A stretch of DNA of 62,113 nucleotides from Thiotrichaceae bacterium (lineage in GTDB: Bacteria > Pseudomonadota > Gammaproteobacteria > Thiotrichales > Thiotrichaceae). This document shows, piece after piece, positions 34,451 through 53,553 of the stretch. Both the position numbers and the translations under genes were made by a program. Every line of letters starts with the position of its first letter. Position 1 is the stretch's first letter. The DNA is taken from positions 1 to 62,113 of the forward strand of contig JALSJU010000063.1 in assembly GCA_026989145.1 (NCBI GenBank). Direction: 5' to 3'. The notes under the pieces were generated by a model, which saw only the letters and a list, made by a program, of their open reading frames with translations, was not told where the DNA came from and searched no databases.

Positions 34451-35938
34451 TTGCGTCAAAATAATTCATCACACGTTGAAAAACAAGAACACTCATTACC
34501 TGAGAAATTTTCTGTGGTATTCGCTGTTGCTGCAACTTCATTAATTTTATTTTTCCCAGTGCCTTCAATCGCAGCAGAAAATGACAGTGATAATGACGGT
34601 TTAACAGATACTTATGAGTTAAAAATTGGTACAGAACCATTTTTATCTGATACTGATGGTGATGGTATTAACGATAAAATTGAAGTCGGTAATAAGCTGG
34701 AAAAGCCATTGGATAGTGATGGTGATAACGTTATTAATGCTTTGGACTTTGATGATGATAATGATGGTTTACCCACGATACTAGAGAGCGCCATCGACAC
34801 CGATAAAGACGGGCTAGCGAATAATATTGATAAAGACTCTGATAACGATGGTATCAGTGATGGTATCGAAGCAGGCATGTTGGGGAAAGATGAAAACTTC
34901 GATATGATTGATGATGCTTTTGATACCCAGCAAGCGGGCGCAAAAGATGAAAACGGTGATGGTATTAATGATTTACTAAAATTGCCAGATTCAAATGGAA
35001 ATGGTGTTCCTGATTATTTAGATGCAACATCACAAAAAACGGCACAGTCTAAACCGAAACAGACGGTTGAGCAGAAAATTGTTACTGAAATTATTAATAA
35101 AGAGATTGAGTCGGTAAAAGATCAAACCCCTAAAGACTTGAAAAAAGTTGTTGAAGTTAAGCAAACGGTTATTGCCGAAAAGAAGCCGCTTGAAAAGCAA
35201 AAAGTTAAAACAGTCACCGTAAAGATCCCTAAAAATAGAGTTGTACTAAACCGACATACTGATACGGATAACGATGGACTGTTGGATTCTCAAGAGATTT
35301 TATTAGGAACAGATCCCAAAAAACGTGATACCGACGGTGACCAAGTATCGGATGCTATTGAGATTGGACTTGATATCAATAACCCACAAGACACCGATGA
35401 GGACGGTATAATTGATGCATTGGATAACGATGATGATAATGATGGTGTCTTAACAAAAAATGAAGATGTAAATAATGATAGTAGTCCAATTAATGATGAT
35501 ACCGATGATGATGGAATCCCTAATTTTTTAGATAATGATGATGATGGCGATAAACGATTAACCCTCGTTGAAGGCAGTAAATTGGATAGTGATAACGACG
35601 GGATTTTGGATTATTTAGACAAGCATGATGGCGTTAAAGACAAAGCTGTTGTAGTCACTAAAAAAGAAGTGATTCCTGAATCACCAGAAGTTGTAGAAAT
35701 TGATGAAGAAAAACCAGTGCAAACAGAGGACCCCGCTTTATCAAAAGCTAGTGGAGACAATCAAGAAGAAAATTTGGCAAAACAGGTGTTAGATAGTGTG
35801 ATTGAGAATCAAGCTGAAGCCATTAAACCGTTAGAGATTAATAATGTTGTAGTAATTAGCAATAAATCGAAACAGCCAAAGCTTGAGAGAAAGGAAGCAG
35901 GTATACTGAGTTGGTTCAAGTCTTTTTTGCCTGACTAA
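34451..35938 (+). CDS. Exported or membrane-anchored protein with thrombospondin type 3-like Asp-rich calcium-binding repeats (495 aa)
   Basis: Hydrophobic segment FSVVFAVAATSLILFFPVPSIAA; many DSDNDGLTD / DTDGDGIND / DNDGIPNFLDNDDD motifs in two blocks. TTG start uncertain. Confidence 0.75.
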   Translation: MRQNNSSHVEKQEHSLPEKFSVVFAVAATSLILFFPVPSIAAENDSDNDGLTDTYELKIGTEPFLSDTDGDGINDKIEVGNKLEKPLDSDGDNVINALDFDDDNDGLPTILESAIDTDKDGLANNIDKDSDNDGISDGIEAGMLGKDENFDMIDDAFDTQQAGAKDENGDGINDLLKLPDSNGNGVPDYLDATSQKTAQSKPKQTVEQKIVTEIINKEIESVKDQTPKDLKKVVEVKQTVIAEKKPLEKQKVKTVTVKIPKNRVVLNRHTDTDNDGLLDSQEILLGTDPKKRDTDGDQVSDAIEIGLDINNPQDTDEDGIIDALDNDDDNDGVLTKNEDVNNDSSPINDDTDDDGIPNFLDNDDDGDKRLTLVEGSKLDSDNDGILDYLDKHDGVKDKAVVVTKKEVIPESPEVVEIDEEKPVQTEDPALSKASGDNQEENLAKQVLDSVIENQAEAIKPLEINNVVVISNKSKQPKLERKEAGILSWFKSFLPD

Positions 35939-49076: not shown

Positions 49077-49289
49077 ATGATTACAGATTCGATATTAACT
49101 TGTCCAGAGTGTGGAGCCTCGCAACAAGAACAGATGCCAGAAAATACTTGCCAATTTAGCTATCGTTGTAATGCGTGTAAAGCCTTAGTTAAAACAAAGC
49201 AAGGAGAATGCTGTATTTATTGTTGCTACGGTGATTACCCTTGTCCGCAAACTCAAATTATTGGCTCATCTTGCTGTAGTCCAGATTAG
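49077..49289 (+). CDS. Small Cys-rich protein (GDCC-type, putative metal-binding)
   Basis: CPECG...CNACK...GECCIYCCYGDYPCPQ, 11 Cys in 70 aa. Confidence 0.75.
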   Translation: MITDSILTCPECGASQQEQMPENTCQFSYRCNACKALVKTKQGECCIYCCYGDYPCPQTQIIGSSCCSPD

Positions 49290-49430
49290 AGGTAATATAG
49301 AGCGGATGGATGGTATGTATAAAAAATAAGCTAATCTTACAATAAAAATTGTGATTGATTAAAATATCACCTATATTCCAGATACCCTCAAGAAAAATCA
49401 CGTAATTACATATACATAAAGGAGTACCCT

Positions 49431-51536
49431 ATGTCTTTTTTTCTCTGCAAACTTTGGCCTTACTTGGCCGGAGGCTTAATTGGTTGGTTATTAGCCGGTT
49501 GGCTAGCACGTCGTTTTAAACATGCAGAACCTCCAGTAGAGCGTATTGTAGAGAAAGTTGTTGAGGTGGATAACCCTCAGCATCTTTCTTTGATTAGAAA
49601 ACTGGAAGGTGAAAATAGTCAAATTGCTGGATTAATGAGTAAGGTGTCACAGTTTGAATCTAGAAAGCCCGAAGTTGTTGAGAAAAGGGTGGAAGTTGAT
49701 AATCCAAAGCATTTAGCATTAATCAGTAAGTTAGAAAAAGAAAATGCTGAAATATCTGTTTTAAGATCAAAACTATCAGGTTTTGAATCTCAAGAAGTAG
49801 TGCTTAGAAAACTAAAAGAAGAAAACTCTCAGATCTCGGCTCTTAAATACAATATCAAAAACTTTGAAAGCAAAGCCGCAAAAGAAGGTGATGAGCTTGC
49901 GGATCTTCATTCAAAAGCAACGCGTTATCGTGCTCAAATAGAAAAGCTAGAAAGTGAAAATAAACACCTTCATGGTTTGCAAGAAAAACTAAATGACTTA
50001 GAAAATGATGAGCCAAAACAGCTCGCATTAATTAGTCGCCTAGAAAAAGAAAATAAAGAACTTGCTGACTTGAAAGCTCAGCAAGCTAAGTTTGAGGCTC
50101 AGGAAGAAAAAATATTAAGCTTAGAATCTGATAGCGCAAAACTTAAGAGTCTACAAGATGATATAGCTCGTTATAAAAATGATAATACACAGCAATTATC
50201 ATTGATTAGTAAGCTGGAGAATGAAAATAAAGAATTGGATGCATTGAAGGAGCAGTTGTCAGAATTAGATGCGCAAAAAAATAAATTGGCTCAATTAGAA
50301 GTTGAAAATAAGAAAATTGCCAATTTAGAAAGTAGCTTAAACCGTTTTGAAAATGACAATACGCAGCATCTATCGTTAATTGGAAAGCTTGAGCAGGAAA
50401 AAAAGCATATTGGTAATAAAGTTACTGATTTAGAAGGCGAGCTTTTATTATTAAAACGCGGTCAGAAGCTTGATATAGCTTCTGCTAAAGCCGCTGGAAT
50501 TATTGTTAAGGATGAAAACGATTTAACGGTTATCGAAGGTATCGGCCCTAAAATTGCCGAATTATTAAAAGCTAATGGAGTTAATAACTTAAAAGAATTA
50601 TCTGAGGTGGATACAGGAAAAATTCAAGGAATATTAAACAAAGGAGGATCTCAATTTCAAATGGCTAATCCTGGTACTTGGCCTGACCAAGCTACGTTGG
50701 CCTGTAATAATCGTTGGCCTGCATTAAAGTCATTGCAAAATGTACTTGATGGCGGTGTTTACCCGGACAGTTCGGCGAAATCGAACGCAAGTAAAGGTTC
50801 TGGATTAGCGCCCAAATTAGATTTAGCTAGTGCTAAAGCTGCAGGAATTGCAGTAACAAAAGAAGGAGATTTCACCGCTATTGAAGGGATTGGGCCTAAA
50901 ATTAGTGAGCTCATATATGCGGATGGCATTAAAACATTTAAAGAGCTTTCGGAGGTTTCACCTTCTCGTTTACAAACAATTCTTGATAATGCGGGGCCGC
51001 AGTACAAAATGGCAAACCCAGGAACATGGCCAGATCAAGCACATTTGGCGAGCCATAATCGTTGGCCTGCATTAAAAGCGCTACAAGATATACTTGATGG
51101 TGGCGTTTATCCTGATGATACTAAAGCTAAGATGAGCAGCACAAATGATTCTGCTAAGGTGCAAAAACTAGAATCAGAGTTAAAAAAGTATCGCGATAAC
51201 GAAAAAGCGGCTGTAACTGCAGGCTCTATTGTTGATGTTGATAAAGCAAAAGCGGCAGGCTTTACGATGCGACGTAAAGGGGATCAAGACGACTTCACGG
51301 TGATCGAGGGAATTGGGCCTAAAATTAATGAGTTAATTCATGCAGAAGGTATCCATACGTATAGTGAGTTAGCTGCTACTAAAGTAAATTCTATTCAGGC
51401 TATTCTTGATAAAGCAGGGCCTAGCTTTACTTTAGCGGATCCTGAAACATGGTCTGCCCAATCGGATTTAGCGGCAAAGAATGAGTGGGAGAAACTAATG
51501 AAATGGCAGGACGAACTTGATGGAGGTAAGTCATAA
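49431..51536 (+). CDS. Membrane-anchored coiled-coil protein with three C-terminal H3TH/helix-hairpin-helix domains (701 aa)
   Basis: TM LWPYLAGGLIGWLLAGWLARRFKH; repeated HLSLIxKLExEN coiled coil; three DxTxIEGIGPKIxELIxAxGI...NPGTWPDQAxLAxxNRWPALKxLQDxLDGG modules. Confidence 0.85.
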   Translation: MSFFLCKLWPYLAGGLIGWLLAGWLARRFKHAEPPVERIVEKVVEVDNPQHLSLIRKLEGENSQIAGLMSKVSQFESRKPEVVEKRVEVDNPKHLALISKLEKENAEISVLRSKLSGFESQEVVLRKLKEENSQISALKYNIKNFESKAAKEGDELADLHSKATRYRAQIEKLESENKHLHGLQEKLNDLENDEPKQLALISRLEKENKELADLKAQQAKFEAQEEKILSLESDSAKLKSLQDDIARYKNDNTQQLSLISKLENENKELDALKEQLSELDAQKNKLAQLEVENKKIANLESSLNRFENDNTQHLSLIGKLEQEKKHIGNKVTDLEGELLLLKRGQKLDIASAKAAGIIVKDENDLTVIEGIGPKIAELLKANGVNNLKELSEVDTGKIQGILNKGGSQFQMANPGTWPDQATLACNNRWPALKSLQNVLDGGVYPDSSAKSNASKGSGLAPKLDLASAKAAGIAVTKEGDFTAIEGIGPKISELIYADGIKTFKELSEVSPSRLQTILDNAGPQYKMANPGTWPDQAHLASHNRWPALKALQDILDGGVYPDDTKAKMSSTNDSAKVQKLESELKKYRDNEKAAVTAGSIVDVDKAKAAGFTMRRKGDQDDFTVIEGIGPKINELIHAEGIHTYSELAATKVNSIQAILDKAGPSFTLADPETWSAQSDLAAKNEWEKLMKWQDELDGGKS

Positions 51537-53278
51537 TGAGTGGCAATAATGAACAAACTATATCGCGTCATTGGTCAGGCTTTCGCTGGATTTGGTGGTT
51601 AATTACTATCATTTTAGCACTCGTATTGTTGGTAATGTGGGCGTTGGGCTATGGCCCTAATGGTAAGTCTTGCCAAATACCCGAAAAAGTCAGAACGGTT
51701 GAAAAACTAATAACAGCACCTGATACAGCAGCGCCATTAATAACATTGAAAGATAACTCTGTTGTGAAAGTATTAGTAGGTGAAACTTATCAAGAAGCAG
51801 GTGCTACAGCAGTAGATGGTGTTGATGGGGCTTTGACTGTAACGACTACGGGTTCTGTTGATGTGAATACTCCAGGCGAATATGAAATAACCTACTCGGT
51901 AACAGATGCTGCAGGTAATTCTACAACTGAAGTTCGTAAGGTCATTGTTGAAGCTAAAGATACCGAAGTGCCAGAAATTACCTTGGTGAATGAAGATGTG
52001 GTTTATGTTAAGACTGGTGATCTTTATGTTGATGAAGGTGCTGTTGCTACTGATATACCCGATGGTGAGCTGAGAGTTGTTACTGAAGGAATGGTTGATA
52101 CTAGTAAAGCAGGAGAATATGTCGTTACTTATTCGGCAACTGATAAGGCAGGGAATAAGTCGTCAAAATCTCGAAAAGTGATCGTTACTGATCCTGATTC
52201 TGCAGCTCCAGTGCTTAGCCTTAATGGTGAGTCTGTTGTTAACTTGCCTGTAGGTGGTGCATATGAAGAAGAGGGCGCCAAAGCGGTCGATCAAGTTGAC
52301 GGAGAACTTAAAGTAACGGATGTAACAGGTAGTGTCGATTCTGATAAGCCTGGTGAATATTATATCACTTATCGTGTTGCTGACAGCGTAGGTAATAAAG
52401 CTGAAATAACGCGTAAAGTCATAGTTACTGCACCAGATAAAGTTGCGCCTAAGATTAGCTTAAAAGGGGATATTCTCGTATCTTTGAAAACTGGCGAAAG
52501 TTATACCGAGCTAGGAGCAACGGCAGTTGATAAAGAAGATGGGGAGGTAAGTGTTACAGCAACCGGTAGTGTTGATATTAACTCTGCAGGCGAATATATC
52601 ATTACTTATACGGCTACGGACAAAGCGGGAAATACGGCAACTGAAACACGTAAAGTTATAGTTGCTACAACTGATAAAGAAGCGCCGCAGATCTCATTAA
52701 AAGGAGATAACTCTATGTCTTTGAGAGCAGGCGAAAGTTATACCGAGCTAGGAGCAACGGCAGTTGATAAAGAAGATGGGGAGGTAAGTGTTACAGCAAC
52801 CGGTAGTGTTGATGTTAACTCTGCAGGTGAGTATGTCATTACTTATACGGCCACAGATAAAGCGGGAAATACGGCAACTGAAACTCGCAAAGTAATAGTT
52901 TCTAAAGCTGAAGTAGTAGAGTCGGAGGTAAACCCGGAGCCTGCTAATGCTGTAACTACGCCTATTCCAAAAGCAAAAGTATACTTTGCTTATGATAAAG
53001 CGAATAACCCGAGAGACAATGATGGTTCTTTTGCTGAGGTCTTGTCATATATGAAGGCGAATAGTAGTGCTACTGCTACAATTTATGGTTTTCACGACCC
53101 CAGCGGTGACCGAAACTACAATCGTGGTCTTGCTAACCGCCGTGCTGAGACTGTTTCATTGGTTATGATGGCCGCAGGTATTCAGAGCACACGACTCAAA
53201 ATAAAGAAACCTGTAGAAACCACGGGAACGGGTGAGCCTAGTGAAGCACGCCGAGTAGAGATAGATGTTAAAAACTAG
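51536..53278 (+). CDS. Membrane-anchored protein with five Ig-like (DUF5011-type) repeats and a C-terminal OmpA-like domain (580 aa)
   Basis: TM WIWWLITIILALVLLVMWALGYG; five APxISLKGDxxVxLxxGExYxExGATAVDxxDGEVxVTxTGSVDxxxxGEYxITYxATDxAGNxxTxTRKVIV; GFHDPSGDRNYNRGLANRRAETVSLVM...RRVEIDV. Confidence 0.88.
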   Translation: MSGNNEQTISRHWSGFRWIWWLITIILALVLLVMWALGYGPNGKSCQIPEKVRTVEKLITAPDTAAPLITLKDNSVVKVLVGETYQEAGATAVDGVDGALTVTTTGSVDVNTPGEYEITYSVTDAAGNSTTEVRKVIVEAKDTEVPEITLVNEDVVYVKTGDLYVDEGAVATDIPDGELRVVTEGMVDTSKAGEYVVTYSATDKAGNKSSKSRKVIVTDPDSAAPVLSLNGESVVNLPVGGAYEEEGAKAVDQVDGELKVTDVTGSVDSDKPGEYYITYRVADSVGNKAEITRKVIVTAPDKVAPKISLKGDILVSLKTGESYTELGATAVDKEDGEVSVTATGSVDINSAGEYIITYTATDKAGNTATETRKVIVATTDKEAPQISLKGDNSMSLRAGESYTELGATAVDKEDGEVSVTATGSVDVNSAGEYVITYTATDKAGNTATETRKVIVSKAEVVESEVNPEPANAVTTPIPKAKVYFAYDKANNPRDNDGSFAEVLSYMKANSSATATIYGFHDPSGDRNYNRGLANRRAETVSLVMMAAGIQSTRLKIKKPVETTGTGEPSEARRVEIDVKN

Positions 53279-53333
53279 CTTAAGGATCTCTGAATAACCT
53301 GCTGGGTTCTGGCAAGATTCATAATTAAGTTTG

Positions 53334-53362
53334 AAAATGGCAACTCTCGAGTTGCCATTTTT
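53334..53362 (+). terminator. Terminator-like palindrome
   Basis: AAAATGGCAACTCTCGAGTTGCCATTTTT following the OmpA-like gene. Confidence 0.75.
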
Positions 53363-53553
53363 ATGTTTTTTGAAATCATACCCGTGGTGGAGGATAAGTT
53401 GCTGACTCGTGCTATAAGCCTCTCATTTATTATATTGGTTGGTAAGGTGCCTTTGAATAATCGAGCTGGATTCTGTCAACGCCTGCTAGGGTTTAATGCC
53501 TTGTAAGCTCGCAGAATCTAACTAGGTTATTCAGAGTCTCCTGAGTCACGTCG

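Follow-up and report, generated by a model that had tools for sequence, protein, structure and literature searches.

Few protein bridges are known that run from the peptidoglycan via the inner membrane into the cytosol. MotA/MotB and ZorA/ZorB each consist of two membrane proteins, one of which combines a TM anchor with a peptidoglycan-binding OmpA domain; ZorA has a long cytosolic coil, and MotB and ZorB have a TM helix with an acidic residue that binds ions. Conserved Asp and Arg positions of OmpA-like domains, such as that of Pal, bind diaminopimelate. A single-protein arrangement is found in the bitopic shape protein RodZ, whose HTH domain has MreB rather than DNA as its ligand (PMC6946637).

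A pair of adjacent genes, P1 and P2, in the 2.63 Mb draft genome of a Thiotrichaceae bacterium resembles each of these systems in part. The window, i.e. the whole stretch of DNA that was analysed, comprises 62,113 nucleotides. Similar to the Mot and Zorya systems, P1 and P2 form a pair of membrane proteins with OmpA domain and TM anchor in one protein and a predicted cytosolic coil in its partner; however, P1 has only one TM segment and no channel, and residues 11-39 of P2, which include its TM helix (51590..51658), contain no D or E. A PADLOC search revealed no match to Zorya/Zor profiles, and a reading of the pair as a defence system was therefore dropped. Pal shares with P2 the OmpA domain with the peptidoglycan-binding Asp and Arg, but P2 is predicted to be TM-anchored in the inner membrane and is no lipoprotein; its TM is of the uncleaved type, no lipobox was seen and it scored 38.4 bits against a Pal cut-off of 125.35 bits. 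In common with RodZ, the pair combines a single TM, a predicted cytosolic helical domain of a DNA-binding class that need not bind DNA, and a periplasmic part, and would likewise link the cytosol to the wall machinery (PMC6946637). RodZ, in contrast, is a single protein whose XRE-type HTH is N-terminal, whereas here a C-terminal H3TH domain is combined with a separate OmpA protein; Pfam detected no RodZ architecture (XRE-type HTH, TM, periplasmic beta domain), and the order is reversed in P1. The initial annotation knew of no described system with this pairing; likewise, we found no account of such an OmpA + H3TH combination in the open-licence literature, and neither there nor in PADLOC did we detect a characterised match.

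Architecture of the P1/P2 locus

All features of the locus lie on the + strand. P1 (49431..51536; 701 aa) encodes a TM segment, a coiled coil and three H3TH domains, and P2 (51536..53278; 580 aa) a TM segment, five Ig units and an OmpA domain. Both reading frames and the proposed one-base overlap were confirmed in the sequence: in TAATG (51534..51538), the stop codon TAA of P1 (51534-51536) and the start codon ATG of P2 (51536-51538) have base 51536 in common. Ribosome-binding-like motifs were found for P1 (AGGAG, 49420..49424) and, within the end of P1, for P2 (GGAGG, 51522..51526). The palindromic terminator predicted 3' of P2 is also present as a terminator-like hairpin of 14 pairs with a T-rich tail (53332..53363); it is the longest among four hairpins detected in a scan in which hairpins of this class were no commoner than in shuffled sequences (4 observed, 3.8 expected). 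Comparison with the closest relative (G004) revealed purifying selection on both genes (dN/dS 0.10 and 0.12). The closest named record, the Thiotrichaceae MAG L066, has a P1 that is 84% identical, and a scan of the genome collection with P1 detected only this L066 locus and an unrelated archaeal HhH protein. Directly upstream of P1 lies a small ORF of 70 aa (49077-49289, +), cysteine-rich and zinc-ribbon-like, with weak Pfam matches only.

A single hydrophobic segment lies close to the start of P1, and most positive charge of the protein is located C-terminal to it. This TM segment (49437..49508) shows an invariant LCxLWP, conserved G and W residues and then ARRFKH, which is predicted to face the cytosol; the invariant Cys6 (49446..49448) is predicted to lie on the periplasmic face. 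The coiled coil (49569..50450) spans about 300 residues, consists of DNPxHLxLIxKLExEN-type repeats and gave an SMC-like coil match over residues 60-339. We set aside the SMC-, Rad50- and JetC-like matches as generic coiled-coil similarity, and matches to ribosomal L21 and PhaH reflect the shared H3TH domain only. Pfam identified three HHH_5 stretches (PF14520, COG3743-like; 5.8e-15) and the GxG hairpin is invariant; the H3TH domains lie at 50517..50756, 50868..51104 and 51288..51527. The third copy is retained in all orthologues and was modelled confidently by AF2 (pLDDT 88.8, pTM 0.81). A Foldseek search of the PDB with this model revealed no match at E<=0.001; weak similarity was strongest to the HhH regions of Pol theta, NusA and Y-family polymerases. 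A sequence search of the PDB with H3TH gave no credible match.

For P2, the proposed layout of a positively charged N-terminus, TM, five Ig-like modules and an OmpA domain with D/R residues is supported by the sequence itself, by Pfam and by an alignment with Pal. The positive N-terminus precedes the TM helix, and the invariant Cys46 (51671..51673) follows just past it, on the predicted periplasmic face. Five Ig-like units of ~79 residues each (PF16403, 1.1e-94) occupy residues 66-456 (51731..52903). The OmpA-like domain (PF00691; 7.6e-9, 36.2 bits against a cut-off of 27.2) covers residues 477-580 (52964..53275) and is predicted to bind peptidoglycan; in an alignment with Pal (4g4v) and others, GFHDPSG and LANRRAETV supply the Asp and the Arg, respectively, at the peptidoglycan-binding positions. 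An AF2 model placed the TM helix at residues 11-39, the Ig units up to residue 456 and the OmpA domain at 477-580; its pTM was low (0.29), in line with the flexibility expected of an Ig ladder.

Conservation of the pair and the wider association

Intact orthologous loci were read in ten genomes, eight of the same family (G000, G004, G002, G003, G006, G007, G011 and G013) and one each of families f67 (G260) and f131 (G305); the loci of G008 and G746 are interrupted by contig ends and stand outside this set. P1 precedes P2 in all ten, across three gammaproteobacterial families, and the two genes are spaced by -4 to +11 bp. The initial annotation had staked its proposal on conservation of the two genes as neighbours, which thus holds in every intact locus. 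Several relatives also have the DUF498-hom-thrC block beside the pair. An HMM of the P1 N-terminus matched only 4 of 369 sampled Gammaproteobacteria genomes, source genome included, which indicates that the P1/P2 form is narrow.

P1 varies among orthologues from 271 to 900 residues and from one to three H3TH domains; invariant are the LCxLWP start followed by conserved G/W, a single Cys at position 5 or 6, and the last H3TH domain. Invariant in P2 are the TM end, one Cys shortly past the TM, and the Asp and Arg of the OmpA domain. Its spacer consists of Ig units in three genomes (G000, G004, G260; degenerate in G013), of a coiled coil in six (G002, G003, G006, G007, G008, G011) and of a BON-like region in G305. 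The P2 coil of relatives resembles the P1 coil, with P1 matches inside the P2 frames of G006 and G003, and repeat modules of a similar kind are therefore predicted in both periplasm and cytosol. Support in trees of the short conserved parts was too weak to count spacer swaps. The Ig ladder, which had been regarded as a component of the system, is thus present with five units in this P2 but is not essential, and judged from these sequences it is incidental to the pair. Such variation in spacer type would fit a ruler better than a binding surface.

A second, different arrangement in the opposite order, an OmpA gene followed by a membrane H3TH gene (OmpA-first pair), occurs in the source genome (C9, L077:2549-5389, +) and across Thiotrichaceae, other Gammaproteobacteria and some Alphaproteobacteria. 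Similar pairs were found in G129 and G185, more weakly in G078, and in 5 of 12 examined genomes of f204, an alphaproteobacteria-like family whose class name we infer. Their OmpA protein has two cysteines past the TM and often a TSP3-type repeat spacer; the H3TH partner starts with a conserved N-terminus of its own, with no Cys ahead of the TM. They were rejected as P1/P2 orthologues, given the restriction of the P1 N-terminus to the four genomes mentioned above. The pair of the source genome has TSP3 repeats and is preceded by a PqiA-like gene; the conserved Arg region is missing from its OmpA domain (GINLVMSL). An open frame of ~501 aa at 34577-35674 of the window matches the TSP3-repeat spacer of the OmpA protein of OmpA-first pairs. 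Genus g2 has a second, longer membrane-H3TH gene in tandem after the OmpA-first pair (L154:6257-8039, +; similar in L023, L028 and L031).

A same-strand OmpA neighbour was found for 38 of 77 membrane-type H3TH genes versus 0 of 15 soluble H3TH fusions, a count with one row per gene, related genomes mixed and no formal test, in which the membrane type was set by a simple hydropathy cut-off that let in a few soluble proteins. Since genomes contain only 4-13 OmpA genes, we estimate chance adjacency at about 1 in 100 per gene or less. By these comparisons, the P1/P2 pair is one form of a wider association of OmpA and membrane-H3TH proteins. No OmpA neighbour was seen for 7 of the 12 examined membrane-H3TH genes of f204 and for several gammaproteobacterial ones including L214 and L215, which suggests that H3TH membrane proteins can also act without such a neighbour. 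The latter two encode small proteins of the source genome (L214:5367-6047, -, C44; L215:4306-5145, +, C90), and the L214 protein has a lysine-rich, histone-H1-like (HC2) linker.

A predicted envelope bridge and its cytosolic ligand

The positive charges after the TM of P1, and the occurrence of the same H3TH domain on the cytosolic ribosomal proteins L21, S2 and L19 and on NuoE-like proteins, point to a cytosolic location of the P1 H3TH domains, consistent with the topology originally proposed for the coil and H3TH region. Both invariant cysteines, P1 Cys6 and P2 Cys46, are predicted on the periplasmic face by the positive-inside rule. Of the refuting outcomes named in the initial annotation, none was seen in these sequence comparisons, and its trans-envelope proposal is upheld to that extent.

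We lean towards the interpretation that P1 and P2 together form a two-protein bridge from peptidoglycan via the inner membrane to cytosolic docking domains. P2, with its N-terminus inside and one TM anchor, would hold peptidoglycan with the OmpA domain at the end of its periplasmic spacer. P1 would have its N-terminus outside and span the membrane once, with coiled coil and C-terminal H3TH domains in the cytosol. The two proteins may contact each other at the periplasmic membrane face through packing of their TM helices, where P1 has conserved glycines, and a disulfide probably connects the single invariant juxtamembrane cysteines. A partner in the cytosol would dock on the H3TH domains and thereby be held in a set position with respect to the wall; a protein or a complex of proteins is a likelier candidate than naked DNA. 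Several observations favour the bridge: the invariant parts are those that it needs (the TM ends, a Cys in each protein, the final H3TH domain, and Asp and Arg in the OmpA domain), order and coupling are kept in ten genomes of three families, and pairs of this kind are also found with different TM and spacer types (38/77 versus 0/15). With both cysteines predicted periplasmic, the P1-P2 disulfide is a specific prediction, namely of a heterodimer to whose joint each protein contributes one Cys; the missing Cys before the TM in OmpA-first H3TH proteins would limit it to the P1/P2 sub-family. The cysteines could instead form homodimer bonds.

DNA had been suggested as a ligand of the H3TH domains, and their charge speaks against it. 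In nine of the ten orthologues they are acidic, with a net charge of -1 to -9 and a pI of 4.2-5.8, whereas HhH domains encoded in the same genome have net charges of +4 (RuvA) and +2 (UvrC), and the acidic repeat of NusA, which we take to be a protein-binding HhH, has -11. On this analysis, with the HTH of RodZ as precedent, we favour a protein ligand, and a DNA tether is the less likely option. If the domains of the same bridge did bind chromosomal DNA, the nucleoid would be fixed to the peptidoglycan. The near-invariant GIGPK hairpin keeps nucleic-acid binding possible, and the weak fold similarity to the HhH regions of DNA polymerases and of Pol theta, the basic G305 orthologue (protein pI 9.7, one H3TH of +3, lysine-rich linker) and the histone-H1-like linker of the orphan membrane-H3TH protein in the source genome agree with such a tether; given the acidic domains of the other orthologues and the missing Foldseek match at E 0.001, we regard it as unlikely but deserving of some weight.

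A protein ligand might also be a cytoskeletal or wall-synthesis protein, in which case the pair would position wall growth or division. The RodZ HTH, which binds MreB and itself rather than DNA (PMC6946637), the acidic H3TH domains and a partner with a predicted peptidoglycan-binding domain would suit this idea. It is nevertheless decidedly improbable, with no RodZ domains in Pfam searches and no shape or division gene recognised nearby in the loci read, and is a narrower version of the bridge rather than a full alternative. There is a slim chance that P1 and P2 are co-expressed envelope proteins that form no complex; membrane-H3TH genes do exist away from OmpA genes, but the two genes are closely spaced in every intact locus (-4 to +11 bp) and the opposite gene order recurs in other lineages. 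An inverted P1 with periplasmic coil and H3TH domains, acting beside P2 as a receptor for incoming DNA in the manner of ComEA, an HhH protein that binds DNA in the periplasm (PMC3879209, PMC2601033), is very hard to reconcile with the positive charges after the TM and the cytosolic prediction they give, the cytosolic proteins that otherwise carry H3TH, its acidity and the lack of a ComEA-type HhH family among 14 Pfam matches.

The bridge that we prefer would offer a candidate function for the H3TH proteins with membrane anchor that are common in Pseudomonadota. With the nucleoid or H3TH-tagged ribosomes as ligand, it would connect the wall physically and directly to the organisation of the cytoplasm. 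A bolder and rather improbable extension is that such pairs are widespread, undescribed two-protein envelope linkers, LINC-like in function and joined by a disulfide in the present case, by which the nucleoid, or ribosomes and enzymes tagged with H3TH, are attached to the wall.

H3TH domains on soluble proteins

COG3743-like H3TH domains also occur as C-terminal fusions on the phasin PhaH and on PHA synthase, and a COG3743 domain has been recorded on a PHA synthase (PMC8686332). The fusions on L21, S2, L19, PhaH, PHA synthase and NuoE-like proteins share the H3TH domain with P1 but, unlike P1, are soluble and were never found beside OmpA genes in the 15 cases counted. L21 and S2 of the source genome carry their C-terminal H3TH on lysine-rich linkers (L078:4863-5675, -, C90; L079:6497-7687, -, C123), and in other families the domain was found on L19, PHA synthase and a nitrate reductase beta-like protein (L092, L094, L103, L095).
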